From: Lacinutrix sp. MedPE-SW | GTDB lineage: Bacteria; Bacteroidota; Bacteroidia; Flavobacteriales; Flavobacteriaceae | Assembly: GCF_001874145.1 (NCBI RefSeq) | Contig: NZ_MPCX01000010.1 | Coordinates: 62,001-126,000, forward strand | Length of the DNA stretch: 64,000 nucleotides | Reading direction: 5' to 3' | In this document: in pieces, positions 15,312 to 62,730 of the stretch | Numbering within the stretch: the stretch's first letter is position 1 | Layout of the letters: each line of letters starts with the position of its first letter | Program-made: the position numbers and the translations under genes | Notes under the pieces: generated by a model | What the model saw: the letters and a program-made list of their open reading frames with translations, nothing else | The model's database searches: none | Told to the model about the DNA's origin: nothing

Positions 15312-15385
15312 GGTCTGGTAGTTCAGTTGGTTAGAATGTCGCCCTGTCACGGCGAAGGTCGCGGGTTCGAGTCCCGTCCAGACCG
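15312..15385 (+). tRNA. tRNA-Asp (GTC)
   Basis: A 74-nt cloverleaf. Acceptor stem GGTCTGG pairs with CCAGACC, the anticodon stem TCGCC/GGCGA encloses CTGTCAC with anticodon GTC, and the T arm is GCGGGTTCGAGTCCCGT. The discriminator base is G, and CCA is not encoded. A terminator follows at 15396-15425. Confidence 0.97.
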
Positions 15386-15395
15386 CAAAATTGCT

Positions 15396-15425: not shown

Positions 15426-15864
15426 GGCAAAAAATTTAGTTGTGTTGTTTTGATGGGTGTAGTAGTCCATCAAGCTGGTAGAAAGCTAGTTAAATAGCTA
15501 AAACCGATGGAAAGCTTTCCTTTTTTCTCTCAAAATTTTGAGATAGAAAATTGGGATGCTTTTTTATTTTATCGTATTTTCTTCTTATTTTATACTTTAT
15601 TGCTCAAAATATTAACATTTGTTAATCGGTTAATCCTTGATTTATGTATTTCGTCGATTATTTGAGCCGTTTATAGATGTTTCCAATATATTAGCCGCTC
15701 TTACTGAGTCCCTTAGCATTTCGATGCCTCTAAGTAAGAGCATTCCATTGAATAGACATTAAGTCTATGTTATTAATTTATGTGTGGTACTATGAATAAT
15801 GGTAGCATTTTCTGTATTCATATTTTAACTAAAAAATTGAAAACAAAATAAATAAACATAAATT
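15426..15864. other. Structured intergenic region upstream of the peptide array
   Basis: About 440 bp without a credible gene. It contains several inverted repeats: a TGATGG/CCATCA stem near 15452-15474, a GGAAAGCTTTCC palindrome followed by T residues around 15511, CTCAAAATTTTGAG near 15530, and the larger hairpin annotated at 15697-15741. It probably holds the promoter and long leader of the downstream peptide operon; I could not find a convincing -33/-7 pair. Confidence 0.5.
15697..15741 (+). ncRNA. Candidate structured RNA element in the peptide-operon leader
   Basis: A 9-bp outer stem (GCTCTTACT at 15697-15705 with AGTAAGAGC at 15733-15741) encloses an inner GCAT-TTCG-ATGC hairpin (15716-15727) with a UUCG tetraloop. 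There is no T tract after it, so it is not a simple terminator. It lies about 125 bp before the first peptide gene and may act in its leader. Confidence 0.4.
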
Positions 15865-16050
15865 ATGAAATCTCTTAAAATTACATTAGTAGCAATCTTC
15901 TCATTAATATTATTAACAGCTGTATTACCTTCTAGCGAAGCAGATGCAACTATAGTAATAGAAACACCCAATCACGAAATTAACAAGCCTTTAATAGATG
16001 CAACTGCCTTTGGTGATAAAAAGAAAAAAGTAGTACCATCTAACGGATAG
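15865..16050 (+). CDS. Secreted small peptide, tandem copy 1
   Basis: A 61-residue precursor, not a family I recognise. Residues 1-22 (two lysines, then ITLVAIFSLILLTAVLP) form a Sec signal peptide. The mature part starts near residue 25-29 and is TIVIETPNHEINKPL, then IDATAFGDKKKKVVPSNG. This is the most divergent copy in the leader and linker (SLILL, SSEADA; A for V before FGDKKKK), as expected for the founder or edge copy. There is no cysteine and no double-glycine leader, so it is neither a lipoprotein nor a classical bacteriocin. The array precedes a TPR histidine kinase and response regulator. Confidence 0.8.
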   Translation: MKSLKITLVAIFSLILLTAVLPSSEADATIVIETPNHEINKPLIDATAFGDKKKKVVPSNG

Positions 16051-16102
16051 ATTTAAAAATAAAATTACAATAAATACAAACCTCATTAATAGCAAAAACA
16101 TT

Positions 16103-16288
16103 ATGAAAACTTTAAAAATTACATTAGTAGCAATCTTCTCATTAGTATTATTCACAGCAGTTCTACCATCTAACGATTCTAATTCTACAATAGTGATAGA
16201 AACACCAAATCACGAAATTAACAAGCCTCTAATAGATGCAACAGTATTTGGAGATAAGAAGAAAAAAGTAGTACCATCTAACGGATAG
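16103..16288 (+). CDS. Secreted small peptide, tandem copy 2
   Basis: A 61-residue paralogue of copy 1, 52 bp downstream. The signal peptide is KTLKITLVAIFSLVLFTAVL; the linker is PSNDSNS; the mature core TIVIETPNHEINKPL is unchanged, followed by IDATVFGDKKKKVVPSNG. The unit carries the same upstream block (CATTAATAGCAAAAACATT) as the other copies, acting as ribosome-binding leader. It is intermediate between copy 1 (IDAT, VVPSNG) and copies 3-5 (LTAT, VIPSNG). Confidence 0.8.
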   Translation: MKTLKITLVAIFSLVLFTAVLPSNDSNSTIVIETPNHEINKPLIDATVFGDKKKKVVPSNG

Positions 16289-16332
16289 ATTTTAAACAAC
16301 AATATTTTACCCTCATTAATAGCAAAAACATT

Positions 16333-16518
16333 ATGAAAACTTTAAAAATTACATTAGTAGCAATCTTCTCATTAGTATTATTTACAGCAGTTTTATCATC
16401 TAAAGATTCTAGTTCTACAATAGTGATAGAAACACCAAACCACGAAATAAATAAACCTTTATTAACTGCAACCGTTTTTGGAGACAAAAAGAAAAAGGTA
16501 ATACCATCTAACGGATAA
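16333..16518 (+). CDS. Secreted small peptide, tandem copy 3
   Basis: A 61-residue paralogue. The linker is SSKDSSS, the invariant core TIVIETPNHEINKPL is followed by LTATVFGDKKKKVIPSNG. Its 234-bp repeat unit (gene plus 3' flank) is almost identical at the DNA level to that of copy 4, showing recent duplication. Differences between copies 3 and 4 are a handful of mostly synonymous changes. Confidence 0.8.
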   Translation: MKTLKITLVAIFSLVLFTAVLSSKDSSSTIVIETPNHEINKPLLTATVFGDKKKKVIPSNG

Positions 16519-16566
16519 TTTAATAAACATTTCTCGCAACATTACATCTTTAATAGCAATAACATT

Positions 16567-16752
16567 ATGAAAACTTTAAAAATTACATTAGTAGCAATCT
16601 TCTCATTAGTATTATTTACAGCAGTTTTATCATCTAAAGATTCTAACTCTACAATAGTTATAGAAACACCAAACCACGAAATAAATAAACCTTTATTAAC
16701 TGCAACCGTTTTTGGTGATAAAAAGAAAAAGGTAATACCATCTAACGGATAA
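16567..16752 (+). CDS. Secreted small peptide, tandem copy 4
   Basis: A 61-residue paralogue. It differs from copy 3 by one residue (linker S to N). Core and C-terminus are the same as in copies 3 and 5. The 48-bp intergenic segment after it is the same as that after copy 3. Precursor architecture: Sec signal, short S/N/D linker, beta-prone core TIVIET, then a charged tail with four consecutive lysines. Confidence 0.8.
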   Translation: MKTLKITLVAIFSLVLFTAVLSSKDSNSTIVIETPNHEINKPLLTATVFGDKKKKVIPSNG

Positions 16753-16800
16753 TTTAATAAACATTTCTCGCAACATTACATCTTTAATAGCAAAAACATA

Positions 16801-16986
16801 ATGAAAACTTTAAAAATTACATTAGTAGCAATCTTCACAATAACATTATTTACTTCAGTTTTACCATCTAAAGATTCTAACTCTACAATAGTGATAGAAA
16901 CACCAAATCACGAAATAAATAAACCTTTATTAACTGCAACCGTTTTTGGAGACAAAAAGAAAAAGGTAATACCATCTAATGGATAG
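16801..16986 (+). CDS. Secreted small peptide, tandem copy 5
   Basis: A 61-residue paralogue and the last of the array. Its signal peptide has diverged (AIFTITLFTSVL) while the mature core and the tail LTATVFGDKKKKVIPSNG are unchanged from copies 3 and 4. Free variation in the signal peptide against constancy of the mature part indicates selection on the secreted product. A terminator-like hairpin (16996-17028) lies between this gene and the histidine kinase. Confidence 0.8.
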   Translation: MKTLKITLVAIFTITLFTSVLPSKDSNSTIVIETPNHEINKPLLTATVFGDKKKKVIPSNG

Positions 16987-16995
16987 TTTTTATGA

Positions 16996-17028
16996 AGAGG
17001 GAATTCTTTTCAATACAATCCCTTTTTT
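16996..17028 (+). terminator. Terminator-like hairpin after the peptide array
   Basis: GGGA...TCCC pairing extended by TT/AA around a single bulge (16999-17022), then six T residues. It would separate peptide expression from expression of the downstream kinase. Confidence 0.55.
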
Positions 17029-17090
17029 ATATATTGTAATTGTAAATAATTTTATTAAAAATTATACTTTTATGAGATAAAGACTAGATA

Positions 17091-19112
17091 TTGAAATTTT
17101 ATAATAAACTAACTTCTTTTATATTAATTTTCTTTTGCTGTTTCTTACAAGCACAAGATGATAGTCTATACTCTAATATTTATAAATTTAGAGCGCTTGC
17201 TAAAGATCAATCATTGACATTTAATAAACGTTTTGAGTATGCTAAAAAAGCAATCTCACTCTCAAAACAAACAAAACAAGATACTACTGTACTGGCTAGT
17301 AATAGAATACTTTCGTATATATATTTATTAGAAGGTGTTGGAGACTCTATATATAAAATAAATAAAGAAAACTTAAGGTTATCTAAAAAATTAGATGATA
17401 CTTTAAAAATGGCTTTTGCAACTAATAATATAGCCTATAGTTTTGAATTAACTAATAAACCAGATAGCGCATATTATTATTATTACCAAGCAGAAAAATA
17501 TTATAGCCAACTTAATAGAAAATTAAATCAAATTGAAGTTTTGTATGCTATGGCAAGCATACAAGAAACAGAGCGAGACTTTATTGGGTCTGAGATTAAT
17601 GCTATTGAAGCTATTAAAATTTTAAACGATTTAGAAGAAGATGAAGCAGTAGTAAACGAATGGCAATGGAATATTAATAATTTATTAGCAATAATCTCCA
17701 GTAGAATAGAACTCTATGATGAAGCAATTACTTACCATAACAAAGCTTTATCTTATACAAGAAATAAAGATGCAAACCCATATAACGCACTATTTTCTAA
17801 AATTAATATTGCCATACTTCAACGCAGAAAGAAAGATTTTGATAAGTCTATAGAAATATTTGAATCTCTATTAGAAGACCAAAAATTAAAATCTGTAGAC
17901 CCATTATCCTATGTAACCGTTATTTCTAACTTAGCGTATGTAAAATTTTTAAAAGGAGATAAAAATTATAATCAAATAATAGAAAGGTTAAAGGAAGCTT
18001 TAAAAATAGCTAATGATGAAGATGATGAAATAGAAATATCTGGAGTAAGTAAATTTCTTTCAGAAGTTTATTTAAAAGCTAATATAAAAGATTCGGCTTT
18101 ATATTATTCAAATCAATCTTTAAAAGTTGCAAAACAAATAAATGCAAATCAAACAATTTTAGATGCATTACTATTAAAATCTAAAATTGAAACAGGTAAA
18201 AAATCTAATTCAAGCTTATTTCAATATATAAAACTAAGTGACAGTTTAGTATTAGCAGAACGTTCTATAAGTAATAAATTTGCTAGAATTTATCATGAAA
18301 CAGATGTTATAAAAAGAGAAAAAGAAGCTGTTTCTAGGCAAAACATGTGGCTTTTAATAACAACAATTGGTTTACTAATTTTAGTTTTATTTATATACAT
18401 AATTAAAACACAGCGAGAAAAAAACAAGGAATTACAACTCGCCAGGCAACAACAACAAGCAAATGAAGAAATTTATAACCTTATGTTATTGCAGCAAGAT
18501 AAAATGGATGAAGCTAGAGCTCTAGAGAAAAAAAGAATTTCTCAAGAAATACATGATGGTATTTTAGGTAGACTATTTGGAGCACGATTAAGCTTAGATA
18601 GTTTAAACATGCTAAAAACCGATGATGCCATACAAAATAGAGAAAGTTATATAAACGAATTAAAAGATATAGAACAGGATATTAGAAAAGTATCTCACGA
18701 GTTAAATACAGATTTTATAGCTAATGCAAGTTTTGAAAGTTTAATAACTACTTTAGTAGAAACTCAATGCCTCGCGTACCAATTAACTTATAATCTAGCC
18801 TTAGACCACAAATTAAATTGGGATATTTTACCAAATAAAACTAAAATACATTTATATAGAATAATACAAGAATCGCTTCAAAATATTTATAAGCATGCAA
18901 ATGCAAGTCTTGTAAGCATCTCTATAAAACAAAAAAAGAATTTAATATCTTTAACAATAAATGATGATGGAGTAGGATTTGATCTTGCGCGAAATAAAGA
19001 AGGAATTGGATTAAAAAACATGAAATCTAGAGTACAGCAAATTAATGGTGTATTTACTGTTAATACAGAAAAAAATAAAGGAACTAATATTAAAATAGAT
19101 GTCCCAATCTAA
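17091..19112 (+). CDS. TPR sensor histidine kinase (HisKA_3/NarL type)
   Basis: A 673-residue membrane kinase starting at TTG 17091 (no better start fits the signal peptide). Residues 1-21 form a signal peptide ending FLQAQ. About residues 30-400 are degenerate TPR helices in the periplasm. A membrane segment lies at about 420-440 (WLLITTIGLLILVLFIYII). A coiled coil then leads to the HisKA_3 phosphoacceptor KKRISQEIHDGILGRLFG with H488. The HATPase has the N box ESLQNIYKHA, G1 NDDGVGFD and G2 KEGIGLKNMKSR. The response regulator gene follows 18 bp downstream. The peptide array upstream makes secreted peptide a candidate ligand for the TPR sensor (inference). Confidence 0.88.
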   Translation: MKFYNKLTSFILIFFCCFLQAQDDSLYSNIYKFRALAKDQSLTFNKRFEYAKKAISLSKQTKQDTTVLASNRILSYIYLLEGVGDSIYKINKENLRLSKKLDDTLKMAFATNNIAYSFELTNKPDSAYYYYYQAEKYYSQLNRKLNQIEVLYAMASIQETERDFIGSEINAIEAIKILNDLEEDEAVVNEWQWNINNLLAIISSRIELYDEAITYHNKALSYTRNKDANPYNALFSKINIAILQRRKKDFDKSIEIFESLLEDQKLKSVDPLSYVTVISNLAYVKFLKGDKNYNQIIERLKEALKIANDEDDEIEISGVSKFLSEVYLKANIKDSALYYSNQSLKVAKQINANQTILDALLLKSKIETGKKSNSSLFQYIKLSDSLVLAERSISNKFARIYHETDVIKREKEAVSRQNMWLLITTIGLLILVLFIYIIKTQREKNKELQLARQQQQANEEIYNLMLLQQDKMDEARALEKKRISQEIHDGILGRLFGARLSLDSLNMLKTDDAIQNRESYINELKDIEQDIRKVSHELNTDFIANASFESLITTLVETQCLAYQLTYNLALDHKLNWDILPNKTKIHLYRIIQESLQNIYKHANASLVSISIKQKKNLISLTINDDGVGFDLARNKEGIGLKNMKSRVQQINGVFTVNTEKNKGTNIKIDVPI

Positions 19113-19130
19113 CTAATAAATTTTTTTAAA

Positions 19131-19811
19131 ATGTTACCAAGAACAATAAGAATTTTAATGACAGATGATCACCCAATGATTTTAGAAGGGTATCAAATTA
19201 CATTAAAAGCAACAAAAAAGGAAAACCAAACACTACTTATAGATACAGCAAATAACTGTGATGAGTCTATTGCTGAAATAAAAAAATCTATAGAAACCAA
19301 TAATCCGTTTGATGTATATTTTTTTGATATAAGTATTCCAGAGTCAAGTGATGGTAAATATAAGTCTGGACTAGATTTGGCAAAATATGTATACGAACAT
19401 TCTCCCAGTTCTAAAATTATAATTTTAACCATGTTTGACGAATCGTTTAGAATTCATAAAATTATAAACGAAATTAATCCAGAAGGTTTTTTAATAAAAA
19501 GCGATTTAACCTCGAGCGAATTATCAAGTGCATTTCAACGTATACTAAATAACGAAATTTTTTATAGTGGAACTGTAAATAGTATATTAAGTAAAACCTT
19601 ACCAAGTAGGTTAGATGTAGATGGTATAAATCACGAAATATTATACCTTTTATCTAAAGGAACAAAAACAAAAGATTTGGTAAAACATTTTGACCTCTCG
19701 TTAAGTAGTGTAGAAAAACGTAAAAAAACCTTAAAACGAATGTTTTTGGTTGAAGATTTAAACGATGAAGCATTAATAAATGCTGCTCGAGAAAAGGGAT
19801 TTATTAATTAA
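19131..19811 (+). CDS. LuxR/NarL-type response regulator
   Basis: A 226-residue two-component regulator. The receiver domain has the acidic pair in LMTDDHP (D12, D13), phosphoacceptor D66 in YFFDISIP, the conserved T in ILTMFDE and K in LIKSD. The C-terminal part has a LuxR-like helix-turn-helix (EILYLLSKGTKTKDLVKHFDLS...VEKRKKTLKRMF), though it is divergent. It is the cognate partner of the TPR kinase 18 bp upstream. The palindromic sites just downstream at 19899-19937 are candidate targets. Confidence 0.87.
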   Translation: MLPRTIRILMTDDHPMILEGYQITLKATKKENQTLLIDTANNCDESIAEIKKSIETNNPFDVYFFDISIPESSDGKYKSGLDLAKYVYEHSPSSKIIILTMFDESFRIHKIINEINPEGFLIKSDLTSSELSSAFQRILNNEIFYSGTVNSILSKTLPSRLDVDGINHEILYLLSKGTKTKDLVKHFDLSLSSVEKRKKTLKRMFLVEDLNDEALINAAREKGFIN

Positions 19812-19898
19812 TTTACTTAATAATAACCTTCTAAATGTTAAAGTTTTAAAAATTTTAAAAAAATAAAAATTTCCGTAACTACCACTAACACTGTAAAG

Positions 19899-20698: not shown

Positions 20699-21061
20699 AT
20701 GAAACAACTTACAAAGGCAGAAGAAGATATAATGCAAGTTTTATGGCAATTAGAGAAAGCCAATGTAAAGCAAATAATTGAGCAATTACCACAGCCAAAA
20801 CCAGCATATAACACAGTATCTACAATAGTTAGAATATTAGAAAGTAAAGGCTTTGTAGATTACGAAAAAAAAGGAAAAGGACATATTTACTTTCCTTTAT
20901 TAAAAAAGCAAGAGTATAGTAACCAGTCATTAAATAAATTGGTAGACAACTATTTTCAAGGATCGTTTAAAAGTATGGTCTCATTTTTTGTTAAAAAAAA
21001 TGACATAAATCTAAATGAATTGGAGTCTGTTTTAGAAGAAATTGAAAAACAAAAAAAATAA
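20699..21061 (+). CDS. BlaI/MecI/CopY-family repressor
   Basis: A 120-residue winged-helix repressor. MKQLTKAEEDIMQVLWQLEKANVKQIIEQLP and AYNTVSTIVRILESKGFVDYEKKGKGHIYFPLL (described by residues 1-31 and 37-69) are the family signature. The C-terminal helices dimerise. It is followed 6 bp later by an M56 peptidase gene, the usual sensor that inactivates the repressor. Nearby there is no beta-lactamase, so antibiotic resistance is not implied. The three upstream palindromes are its likely operators. Confidence 0.92.
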   Translation: MKQLTKAEEDIMQVLWQLEKANVKQIIEQLPQPKPAYNTVSTIVRILESKGFVDYEKKGKGHIYFPLLKKQEYSNQSLNKLVDNYFQGSFKSMVSFFVKKNDINLNELESVLEEIEKQKK

Positions 21062-21067
21062 TAAAAG

Positions 21068-22390
21068 ATGCTATATTATATTTTACAAACCGTTGTTTTT
21101 CAGCTATTATTTTTAATGCTGTATGATGTTTTTTTTAAAAATGAAACATTCTTTAATTGTAATAGAATCTACTTGTTGTTTACTGCAGTTCTATCGTTAA
21201 TTTTACCTTTCTTACAAATAAATAGCTTCAATAAAATAATACCGCAAGATTATGTTTTGAGCCTTCCAGAAATAATAATAGGTCAAAAAGAAATTGTTGC
21301 AGGAACTATTACAAAAACAGACTTAACAAAAGTGCCTTCTGGTTTCACATTCCATTGGGAACATATAATATATTTAGGTAGTGTAATAACATTAATACTA
21401 TTTGTTTTTAAGCTATCTAGACTTATAATTCTAGTTTTTAAAAGCCCTAAAACTAAATTTAAACAAGCTTTTTTAATTCAGATTATAAATAGTAAAACAG
21501 CCTATTCTTTTTTCAATTATATATTTATTGGAGATAAAATTTATCCAGAAGAAAAACAAACAATTATAGCGCACGAGCTAGAACATGTAAAAGAAAAACA
21601 TAGTATAGATTTGTTGTTTTTCGAAATTTTAAAAATCATTTTTTGGTTTAATCCTCTAATTTATTTGTATCAAAATAGAATTGCCAATTTACATGAATTT
21701 ATAGCAGATTTTAAAGCTGTTAAGTCAAGTAATAAAACTTTTTATTATCAAAATTTGCTATCTCAGGTTTTCGATACTAAAAAAGTATCATTTATCAATC
21801 CATTTTTTAAACAATCATTAATCAAAAAACGAATCATTATGTTAAGTAAACAAAAATCAAAACAAAAAAACGTATTAAAGTATCTTTTATTAGTTCCAGT
21901 AATTTTTGGAATGTTATTATATACTTCTTGTGCTAATGAAGAAAAAACTACAAATGATGAATTATTAGATTCAAACTCTAAAAATGCTGTAGACGAAATA
22001 GTTGAAGAAGAAATTTTAGAAATAGAAGAGGTTGCCTCATTTTATGAAATAGACGAAGTGCCAAAATATCCAGGATGTGAAACTTTGACTACTAATGACG
22101 AATTGAGAAAATGTTTTTCAAATAATTTAAATAAAATTATTGCTAATAATTTTAACTCTTCTCTTGGTAAAACACTAGGTCTAGTTGGTTCACAAAAAAT
22201 AGATGTTTCATTTACAATAAACAAATTAGGCAAAATAGAAAAGGTAAATGTAAAAGCACCGCACCCAGAATTAAAAGAAGAAGCAAAGCGTGTAATAGGT
22301 TTAATACCAAATGTTATTCCTGGAAAACAAAATGGCAAAGTGGTTAACGTCGCATTCTTTCTGCCTATAAAATTTGTAGTTAAAGAATAA
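21068..22390 (+). CDS. M56 (BlaR1/MecR1-like) membrane metallopeptidase with TonB C-terminal-like domain
   Basis: A 440-residue protein. The N-terminal half has several membrane helices and the zinc peptidase motif AHELEHVKEKHSIDLLFFE (H169, E170, H173), followed by IIFWFNPLIYLY and LHEFIADFKAV, as in BlaR1. A further membrane segment lies near residue 275. The C-terminal ~120 residues (VPKYPGCET through FFLPIKFVV) resemble the TonB C-terminal fold instead of a penicillin-binding domain. It is presumably the signal-transducing protease for the BlaI-like repressor upstream. Terminator at 22412-22439. Confidence 0.85.
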   Translation: MLYYILQTVVFQLLFLMLYDVFFKNETFFNCNRIYLLFTAVLSLILPFLQINSFNKIIPQDYVLSLPEIIIGQKEIVAGTITKTDLTKVPSGFTFHWEHIIYLGSVITLILFVFKLSRLIILVFKSPKTKFKQAFLIQIINSKTAYSFFNYIFIGDKIYPEEKQTIIAHELEHVKEKHSIDLLFFEILKIIFWFNPLIYLYQNRIANLHEFIADFKAVKSSNKTFYYQNLLSQVFDTKKVSFINPFFKQSLIKKRIIMLSKQKSKQKNVLKYLLLVPVIFGMLLYTSCANEEKTTNDELLDSNSKNAVDEIVEEEILEIEEVASFYEIDEVPKYPGCETLTTNDELRKCFSNNLNKIIANNFNSSLGKTLGLVGSQKIDVSFTINKLGKIEKVNVKAPHPELKEEAKRVIGLIPNVIPGKQNGKVVNVAFFLPIKFVVKE

Positions 22391-61905: not shown

Positions 61906-62730
61906 TTAAATTTTAAAAGTGATTACTGGTCTTTTAGCATGGTTAACAAGGTCTTCACTTAAGCTTCCGTTTAAAAAATGCGCTATACCTTGGCGTCCAT
62001 GTGTGCTAATTCCTATTAAATCGGCATCAATTATATGAGAAAAATTTAAAATACCTTTCTCTGCTGTTTCATCATTATAAATGTTTATAGTGTAATTTGT
62101 AAACGTGGTTCCTTTAATAAAATCTTGGATTTTTACTTTTGCAGACGCTGTTGTTTTAAAGTTAGAAACAGTATTTACCATAAGTAAATGTATTTTAGCA
62201 TTAAACATTTCGGCTAGTTTTACAGCTTGCTTAAATGTTTCTTTGTTATCGTTTTCAAAATCTGATGCAAAAACAAACTCTTCAATATTAAAGTTTTCGT
62301 GTTCATTTTTAATAACCAATACAGGTATATCACTGGTTCTAACAAGCTTTTCTGCATTACTACCAATAAACATTTCTTTTAAACCGGTAGCGCCATGAGA
62401 TCCCATAATAATTAAATCGATATCGTGCGCTTTGCTAACTTCTTTTATTCCAGTATTAATATCGTGAAAATCAACCATTTCTGTTACGGTGACATTTTGT
62501 AAAAAAGGTTGGTTCATGATGTCTTCAAACTGTTTGTGTGCTAACTTCATAAAATAAACTGCCTCAGGTAAATCTGCTGGAGCACTGCCAGCATTTAATT
62601 GTACTAAAGGTAAATCTAACATGTGTAAAAGAATGAGTTCACAACCATGTTTTTCGCCTAATTGGGCAGCAACTTTAATTGCATTTTCTGCTTCTTTTGA
62701 AAAGTCTGTGGGTACGAGAATTTTTTTCAT
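61906..62730 (-). CDS. Universal stress protein, two Usp domains
   Basis: A 274-residue tandem UspA protein. Domain 1 (residues 1-145) starts ILVPTDFSKEAENAIKVA and ends with the ATP-binding GSHGATGLKEMFIGSNAEKL pattern (G-x2-G-x9-G-S/N). Domain 2 (about 150-274) has FVFASDFENDNKETFKQA and a GISTHGRQGIAHFLNGS motif. Cytoplasmic; probably stress or energy-linked ATP-binding. It stands alone, divergent from the rimP promoter. Confidence 0.9.
   Translation of the reverse strand: MKKILVPTDFSKEAENAIKVAAQLGEKHGCELILLHMLDLPLVQLNAGSAPADLPEAVYFMKLAHKQFEDIMNQPFLQNVTVTEMVDFHDINTGIKEVSKAHDIDLIIMGSHGATGLKEMFIGSNAEKLVRTSDIPVLVIKNEHENFNIEEFVFASDFENDNKETFKQAVKLAEMFNAKIHLLMVNTVSNFKTTASAKVKIQDFIKGTTFTNYTINIYNDETAEKGILNFSHIIDADLIGISTHGRQGIAHFLNGSLSEDLVNHAKRPVITFKI

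Follow-up and report, generated by a model that had tools for sequence, protein, structure and literature searches.

We wanted to understand why, in Lacinutrix sp. MedPE-SW (family Flavobacteriaceae), five copies of a gene for a small peptide precursor stand directly before the gene of a sensor histidine kinase. The locus lies in contig NZ_MPCX01000010.1 of assembly GCF_001874145.1, of which we analysed a stretch of 64,000 nucleotides (nt; positions 62,001 to 126,000 of the forward strand), referred to here as the window. A reading of the letters without database searches (the sequence-only reading) had proposed that the peptides, the kinase with its periplasmic tetratricopeptide repeat (TPR) region and the regulator encoded after it form a peptide-signalling system. 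Comparison with related genomes supports this proposal, without establishing it: the peptide tail covaries with the TPR sensor, alleles of the cassette have been exchanged, and the TPR fold predicted for the kinase fits a ligand-receptor pair. The sequences argue strongly for a functional tie between peptide tail and sensor and moderately for a specificity resembling that of Gram-positive pherotypes, and they point to an undescribed peptide-signalling system in Gram-negative bacteria. The genes concerned are as follows.

15865..16050, + strand: peptide precursor copy 1, 61 amino acids; AXA cleavage site between SEADA and TIVIE, read by eye
16103..16288, + strand: peptide precursor copy 2, 61 amino acids
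16333..16518, + strand: peptide precursor copy 3, 61 amino acids
16567..16752, + strand: peptide precursor copy 4, 61 amino acids
16801..16986, + strand: peptide precursor copy 5, 61 amino acids
17091..19112, + strand: sensor histidine kinase, 673 amino acids, TTG start; TPR, HisKA_3 with H488, HATPase_c
19131..19811, + strand: response regulator, 226 amino acids; receiver and NarL/LuxR-like C-terminal domain

The peptide array and its linkage to a TPR kinase

The array proved to consist, as first described, of five tandem open reading frames (ORFs) of 61 amino acids on the + strand (15865-16986), with the last stop codon 104 nt before the kinase gene. At the DNA level the copies form one five-copy repeat family with a unit of 234 nt and a spacing of 230-238 nt. 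Copies 2-5 are 75-85% identical to copy 1 (mean column identity of all five, 92%), and over residues 29-61 the ten copy pairs show 2-11 synonymous versus 0-4 nonsynonymous codon differences, which indicates that the five ORFs are real coding genes under constraint. They encode Sec-type precursors, each with a signal peptide in front and a basic tail that has P-x-[NQ]-G near its end. The sequence-only reading had described a variable signal peptide and a fixed TIVIETPNHEINKPL and FGDKKKK; this holds within the array, where both motifs are intact in all five copies, and is reversed across species: there the middle of the precursor, 'TIVIETPNHEINKPL' included, is the hypervariable part, and what stays conserved is the signal peptide (MKxLKIT...) together with the C-terminal tip (P-x-[NQ]-G). 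Judged from these alignments, the conserved signature of the family is the signal peptide plus the C-terminal tip rather than the 15-residue core. Run against the window's own genome, the five-copy profile matched strongly five times; its four other matches had E 0.08 or worse. We note that a wider peptide profile gave two further weak matches there, mostly to the signal peptide, at C20:30248-30412 (E 0.0016, inside a 230-amino-acid frame) and C1:251137-251256 (E 0.0022, inside a 93-amino-acid frame). Neither the Sec peptides nor the lipoprotein peptides described below matched a Pfam or NCBIfam family above its cut-off, and PG1828, considered as an identity for the peptide, was dropped (21.6 bits against a cut-off of 50, covering residues 1-31 only).

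A domain search of the kinase detected TPR (PF13424), HisKA_3 and HATPase_c. A signal peptide and a transmembrane segment at about 418-440, both recognised by eye, flank the TPR superhelix (about 25-400) and thereby place it in the periplasm, in agreement with the initial description of the gene directly behind the array. The genome holds one further kinase match at E ≤ 1e-8, to the catalytic part alone. Regarding the supposed LuxR regulator, the receiver half of the claim is clear (PF00072 in 10 of 10 orthologues), but the LuxR-type helix-turn-helix (HTH) is only weakly recognised, as only 2 of 10 orthologues gave a GerE match, the better one at E 0.002, and the window's own protein gave none; NarL/RcsB-like NCBIfam matches were below cut-off.

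We then looked for linkage of array and kinase in the family at large. The five-peptide profile, run against 299 genomes of the family, matched at E ≤ 1e-3 in 9 genomes, several with two to seven copies. All 9 also carry the orthologous kinase, so that the possibility that homologues are common without a linked kinase is not what was found. The peptide genes precede the kinase in 8 of the 9 (in G282 with a run of N between); in G195 the peptides lie at the end of one contig and the kinase at the end of another. In seven relatives with unbroken contigs (12-18-kb stretches), the kinase is 47-83% and the regulator 58-92% identical to those of the window. Matches near the noise level also precede the kinase, in G109 (E 0.003) and G107 (E 0.011) and likewise in G221, G072, G044 and G291 (E 0.07-0.09). 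A peptide match at E ≤ 0.01 was obtained in 12 of 13 genomes of the window's genus; the one that gave none is 89% complete.

Starting from the kinase, we found that 171 of the same 299 genomes match its profile at E ≤ 1e-100. Linkage was scored automatically as a small ORF with a signal peptide ending 480 nt or less before the kinase. In set A (110 kinase loci chosen from the list, non-randomly, some genomes contributing two or three), such an ORF was present at 99 of 108 loci with enough upstream sequence (97 automatic; L043 and L105 by eye). The nine misses are L231 and L116, L117, L119 and L121-L125, which last eight form one paralogous kinase clade (support 0.997) and offer a natural contrast for TPR sensing without a linked ligand. 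Set B, an independent set of 80 named loci found via the regulator, gave 75 of 75 usable loci (71 automatic; L131, L150, L187 and L195 by eye), and ten loci of the genus gave eight usable ones, comprising seven automatic hits and L212 by eye. Loci were judged by eye where the filter failed (L105, L187, L195), where a run of N lies inside the array (L043, L150) or where the kinase is split (L131, L212). As the control, the automatic test was applied to 686 other ORFs, of which 17 passed. The median distance from peptide stop to kinase is 111 nt, and a regulator-sized ORF directly follows 161 of 166 kinases. Named carriers include Lacinutrix, Bizionia, Olleya, Hanstruepera, Xanthomarina, Mesoflavibacter, Hyunsoonleella, Algibacter, Formosa, Seonamhaeicola and Mariniflexile. 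The linkage of peptide homologues with TPR kinases thus extends far beyond the genus. Of 295 genomes drawn class-wide, 9 gave a kinase match at E ≤ 1e-70, and each of these belongs to the family of the window. Between DUF58 and DUF456, the cassette holds no ORF of at least 150 amino acids besides kinase and regulator (window, L038 and L039).

We could find no description of the module in Pfam, in NCBIfam or in the open-access full-text library searched. The passages seen of PMC7807042, PMC5399024, PMC8895600, PMC7440613, PMC9765709 and PMC5080379 do not describe the peptide-kinase pair. Two candidates for a published account were set aside, because the passages on the F. johnsoniae csl lipoproteins and on the Riemerella RAYM two-component system (BaeS/OmpR type) do not describe such a pair.

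An AlphaFold2 model of the kinase (45 sequences) had a mean predicted local distance difference test score (pLDDT) of 84.4, mostly above 90 in the TPR part, and a predicted template modelling score (pTM) of 0.59. Its top structural matches are LGN/Pins complexes (Z about 28). The TPR part also matches RapI (Z 25.5, root mean square deviation (rmsd) 4.6, 349 residues aligned), NprR (Z 24.2, rmsd 4.6, 314 residues), RapH (Z 22.5, rmsd 3.9, 300 residues) and RapF (Z 22.2, rmsd 3.9, 299 residues). Both LGN/Pins and the RapI/NprR-type TPR proteins take peptides in the TPR groove.

Covariation and exchange of peptide and sensor

The peptides fall into two classes. By a strict lipobox rule, those beside 157 distinct kinases comprise 90 lipoproteins and 67 Sec peptides, a rule that miscalls L222 as Sec. 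On the kinase tree the class changes 7 times, the label 'none' included, versus a mean of 60 for shuffled labels, and all 63 leaves of the Sec set form one kinase clade (support 0.994); L196, L091, L222 and L233 were left out of the Sec set for the clade, covariation and tail-charge counts. In the Sec peptides, a conserved signal peptide and a conserved tip (PSNG, PTNG or PTQG, for example) enclose a hypervariable middle; the last six residues of 56 of 63 include a P with N, Q, H or G no more than two residues after it. Their tails are basic (median net charge +3 over the last 15 residues) and those of the lipoproteins acidic (median -2). The lipoproteins mostly start C-T-K-Q-D-L-N-E-D-D and have tails such as TGGGVDD or GDIEER. 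The Bacteroidetes surface lipoprotein export signal (LES) is given as C-X-K-(D/E)2 after the lipobox (PMC5080379); the usual start of our lipoproteins has the K at +3 and the acidic residues, but a Q at +4. The copy number ranges from 1 to 7, with more than one copy at 17 of 154 loci by a similarity rule and arrays in both classes. We note that several assemblies are broken or N-filled at the array (G195 C4/C30, G093 C26/C35, G306 C15/C22, G307 C3/C4, and L043), so that copy numbers from short reads are probably too low. In the L094 lipoprotein, the tail TGGGVDERD is repeated three times in tandem within the precursor (372 to 132 nt before the kinase ORF), as if one precursor carried several ligand units. 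In Lacinutrix jangbogonensis, three copies are lipoproteins, and the last copy has lost its Cys.

The distances among mature peptides follow those among the TPR parts of the adjacent kinases (r 0.73 in the Sec set and 0.60 in the lipoprotein core, which is restricted to peptides with QDL). When the kinase domain was partialled out, the values were 0.56 and 0.54, respectively (0 of 2000 permutations). As plain Mantel tests do not exclude linkage, we added the signal peptide, the intervening DNA and the leader as controls and computed all correlations given the distances of kinase and regulator (lipoprotein core, n 61; Sec, n 60; 1000 permutations). Under these conditions, the last 12 residues correlated with the TPR at 0.61 in the lipoprotein core and 0.43 in the Sec set, and the mature part at 0.53 and 0.56, and none of the 1000 permutations reached any of these values. 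The corresponding values were 0.09 and 0.28 for the signal peptide, 0.24 and -0.06 for the DNA between peptide and kinase, and 0.21 and 0.25 for the 200-nt leader. Some of these controls exceed chance, which indicates that linkage contributes to the covariation. The intervening DNA travels with any two-gene tract, and yet, in these alignments, it covaries far less than the tail.

Further, tail and sensor appear to switch together. In the lipoprotein core, a peptide ending in R was never found beside a short TPR, in which the first segment is missing (0 of 35), versus 19 of 27 beside a full TPR. The full or short state of the N-terminal TPR requires 13 changes on the kinase-plus-regulator tree (31.8 when shuffled) and 1 on the TPR tree; the tail ending in R, again in the lipoprotein core, requires 11 and 3, respectively. 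These switching counts leave out peptides beginning MKKV. Aestuariivivens marinum (full TPR, ETR) and A. insulae (short TPR, GDD) are relatives that differ in both traits.

The cassette as a whole stands out from its surroundings when the window is compared with the congener G091.

15550..19850, no strand: divergent island (the cassette) versus congener G091; ends approximate, from the nucleotide identity profile

Nucleotide identity is 74-84% from about 15.55 to 19.85 kb and 91-99% outside, with the exception of about 86% near an indel at 12.75-13.5 kb. Kinase and regulator have a synonymous divergence (dS) of 1.27 and 1.32, respectively, whereas three genes upstream have 0.29, 0.30 and 0.67 and nine genes downstream have 0.05-0.13; for the peptides, dS is 0.44 and 0.97, with copies paired arbitrarily. 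The kinases of L196 and L214 (63%) are likewise far more divergent than their flanks (84%); L151 and L156 have a cassette (kinase 91%, regulator 93%) more alike than its flanks (88.5%). Some records of the window's genus coincide with records of Lacinutrix, the pairs L039/L151, L190/L211 and L196/L210 being identical; duplicate pairs of one genome from two sources were ignored in these comparisons. In most pairs compared, the TPR part is more divergent than the catalytic part. The DUF58/DUF456 locus, occupied by the Sec type in other Lacinutrix, has a lipoprotein-type cassette in L. jangbogonensis, whose kinase groups in the lipoprotein clade. Such a mosaic of cassettes, some more diverged and some more alike than their flanks, is the outcome to be expected when diverged alleles are exchanged, and it would be compatible with specificity groups. 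Downstream of the cassette and outside the divergent island, the window carries a penicillinase-repressor and M56/TonB_C gene pair (20699-22390).

Expression signals around the array

Two features flank the array on the + strand.

15687..15864, + strand: promoter-like TATATTAG box and structured 5' leader of the array, from motif enrichment and folding energy
16994..17027, + strand: terminator-like hairpin with T-tract in the gap between array and kinase, -8.0 kcal/mol

The leader in the window folds at -38.2 kcal/mol (z -4.2), with TCCCT in an unpaired internal loop and TCCATT between two predicted hairpins. Family-wide, TCCCTCA occurs in the region before the peptide gene at 46 of 58 loci of the lipoprotein class and 42 of 61 of the Sec class, versus about 1 expected, an enrichment of some forty-fold or more; the window's own version is TCCCTTA. 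TCCATT is present in 108 of 151 leaders, and the box TAnnTTTG on its own is weakly enriched (42 of 151 versus 27 shuffled). Where a TAnnTTnG box could be located (39 lipoprotein-core and 45 Sec loci), the leader is about 170-265 nt long; alignments were made of 38 of the 39 lipoprotein leaders (A6) and 25 of the 45 Sec leaders (A7). RNAalifold gave 11 consensus pairs only for the 38 lipoprotein-class leaders, which does not amount to a common fold for the whole leader. In their main helix, 91% of cells are paired and 33 are double-change cells, versus 79% and 8.6 in shuffles; as none of 500 shuffles reached either value, this helix shows compensatory change. A leader with both TCCCTCA and TCCATT was also mapped at L109:2917-3163. 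An Rfam search of the window stretch gave no family for the leader, its sole match being a nearby tRNA; a tRNA-Asp (gtc) lies at 15312-15386, just upstream of the cassette. The family-wide leader looks, from its motifs and helix, like an undescribed regulatory RNA or protein-binding leader.

A hairpin with T-tract follows the last peptide within 110 nt at 135 of 154 loci, versus 38 of 151 in a control stretch (the hairpin and copy-number counts take in 154 of the 157 loci). TTG is the most upstream possible start of the kinase ORF at 114 of 157 loci, and this conserved start hints at weak translation of the receptor kinase. Taken together, leader, terminator and TTG lead us to infer that expression is strong for the signal and weak for the receiver.

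Readings of the cassette and comparison with known systems

We consider it probable that the cassette is a polymorphic, pherotype-like ligand-receptor signalling module. According to this proposal, the array would be transcribed as its own abundant short mRNA, as leader and terminator suggest. The precursors would be exported by Sec and cleaved here by signal peptidase I, and those of the sister class would be lipidated through signal peptidase II. The active ligand would be the C-terminal part, with a basic..P-x-[NQ]-G tip here, and would bind in the groove that the TPR superhelix of the neighbouring kinase offers in the periplasm; this kinase would in turn control the NarL/LuxR-type regulator. 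The pair of peptide and sensor would diversify into specificity types, and strains would exchange these types by recombination, as they do the pherotypes in Gram-positive quorum sensing. Direct binding, processing, release to other cells and the targets of the regulator are the steps that we infer. It seems highly likely to us that the TPR sensor has its cognate ligand or regulator in the peptide; whether the peptide acts between cells we regard as evenly balanced.

Several observations weigh against this proposal. Peptide and sensor are adjacent, and recombination tracts could carry both without functional coupling; the intervening DNA in the lipoprotein core and the signal peptide and leader in the Sec set exceeded all 1000 permutations, the leader in the lipoprotein core exceeded all but one, and the fast-evolving intervening DNA may be saturated, which would weaken it as a linkage control. 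Many homologues are lipoproteins and would need release or contact for signalling between cells, the peptide is in a single copy at 137 of 154 loci, and no dedicated exporter or processing protease is encoded in the cassette. The eight-locus paralogous clade noted above has kinases without an upstream peptide, and in the class-wide draw a small exported ORF preceded the kinase at 7 of 10 loci and not at the other 3 (L245, and the weaker second matches L250 and L251). Finally, the TPR fold is very common and the best matches of the model are LGN/Pins complexes, so that a shared predicted fold shows no function.

Some of these points would suit a peptide or lipoprotein that stays in its own cell's envelope and either holds the kinase off or reports the state of Sec, Lol or proteases, for which the CpxP-like accessory proteins are a parallel; cells would then exchange no message. 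The lipoprotein class, 90 of 157 by the strict rule, would fit such a sentinel, as would the missing exporter and protease genes, the terminator combined with a single-copy norm, and the strongly conserved signal peptides. A generic stress probe should, however, be conserved, and the tails are instead hypervariable and covary and switch with the sensor; array amplification and internal tail repeats also favour ligand dosage, and we judge self-sensing, although the chief rival, to be unlikely. More doubtful still is that the peptide is an output, namely a small surface or antimicrobial product under the adjacent two-component system that lies nearby through co-regulation. Its apparently separate transcription unit and the basic Sec-class tails would agree with this, but the lipoprotein tails in the same position are acidic, the cassette has no immunity or export genes of at least 150 amino acids, and the covariation is with the sensor rather than the regulator. 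The least probable reading in our estimation, to which we give hardly any credence, is that peptide and kinase are functionally unrelated neighbours whose covariation and co-switching come from physical linkage. One tract can indeed carry both over a median of 111 nt, and some linkage controls also correlate; against it, the intervening DNA covaries much less than the tail, and the linkage is kept family-wide while other neighbours change (DUF58 is beside L196 and L214 and not beside L104 or L206 in the stretches compared).

Peptide quorum sensing is textbook knowledge for Gram-positive bacteria. The TPR receptors known for it are cytoplasmic (PMC9765709). A comparative survey lists a homoserine-lactone cluster in one flavobacterial strain only (PMC7440613). 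If the signalling proposal is true, the co-diversifying peptide and periplasmic TPR kinase would be a candidate cell-to-cell language for this large family and would reveal how a histidine kinase can be gated by a TPR superhelix. A peptide language shared across the Flavobacteriaceae, with exported peptides or surface lipoprotein tails as pheromones for periplasmic TPR kinases, pherotypes recombining between species and a leader RNA controlling dosage, is a wider claim that we hold tentatively, as falling just short of an even chance. With the peptides, receptors and type boundaries given above, the signalling question can be tested directly.

Among known systems, the FimS-type kinases of the Bacteroidota share the combination of TPR and kinase, but the window kinase matches the NCBIfam FimS model at 22.8 bits, far below the cut-off of 600, and we know of no linked peptide ligand for FimS. 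The enterococcal sex pheromones also derive from small lipoprotein precursors; their source is the signal peptide, and their receptors, of the PrgX type, are cytoplasmic, whereas in our module it is the C-terminal tail, more than the signal peptide, that covaries with the sensor. The AgrBDCA and ComQXPA systems likewise hold propeptide, kinase and regulator in one locus, and ComQXPA systems have diversified specificity types (pherotypes). They differ in their dedicated processing enzyme (AgrB or ComQ), for which our cassette has no such gene, in a polytopic membrane sensor domain in place of a TPR superhelix, and in an AgrD- or ComX-type precursor in place of one with a Sec signal peptide or lipobox. 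The RRNPPA systems (Rap-Phr, NprR-NprX, PlcR-PapR, AimR) are alike in setting a TPR superhelix beside a short exported propeptide, and the module's TPR matches RapI and NprR over 349 and 314 residues, with other TPR proteins matching equally well or better. RRNPPA propeptides of the Bacillales also leave by Sec and signal peptidase I or II and are encoded downstream of the receptor (PMC9765709), whereas ours lie upstream, in a Gram-negative family. Their receptor is cytoplasmic, binds the re-imported peptide and carries an HTH or Spo0F/ComA-type output on the TPR protein itself; here the TPR is predicted to be periplasmic, in a membrane histidine kinase with HisKA_3 and HATPase_c and a separate regulator. 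RRNPPA is the nearest mechanism and yet a different family, because the receptor in our module is a putative periplasmic sensor kinase.

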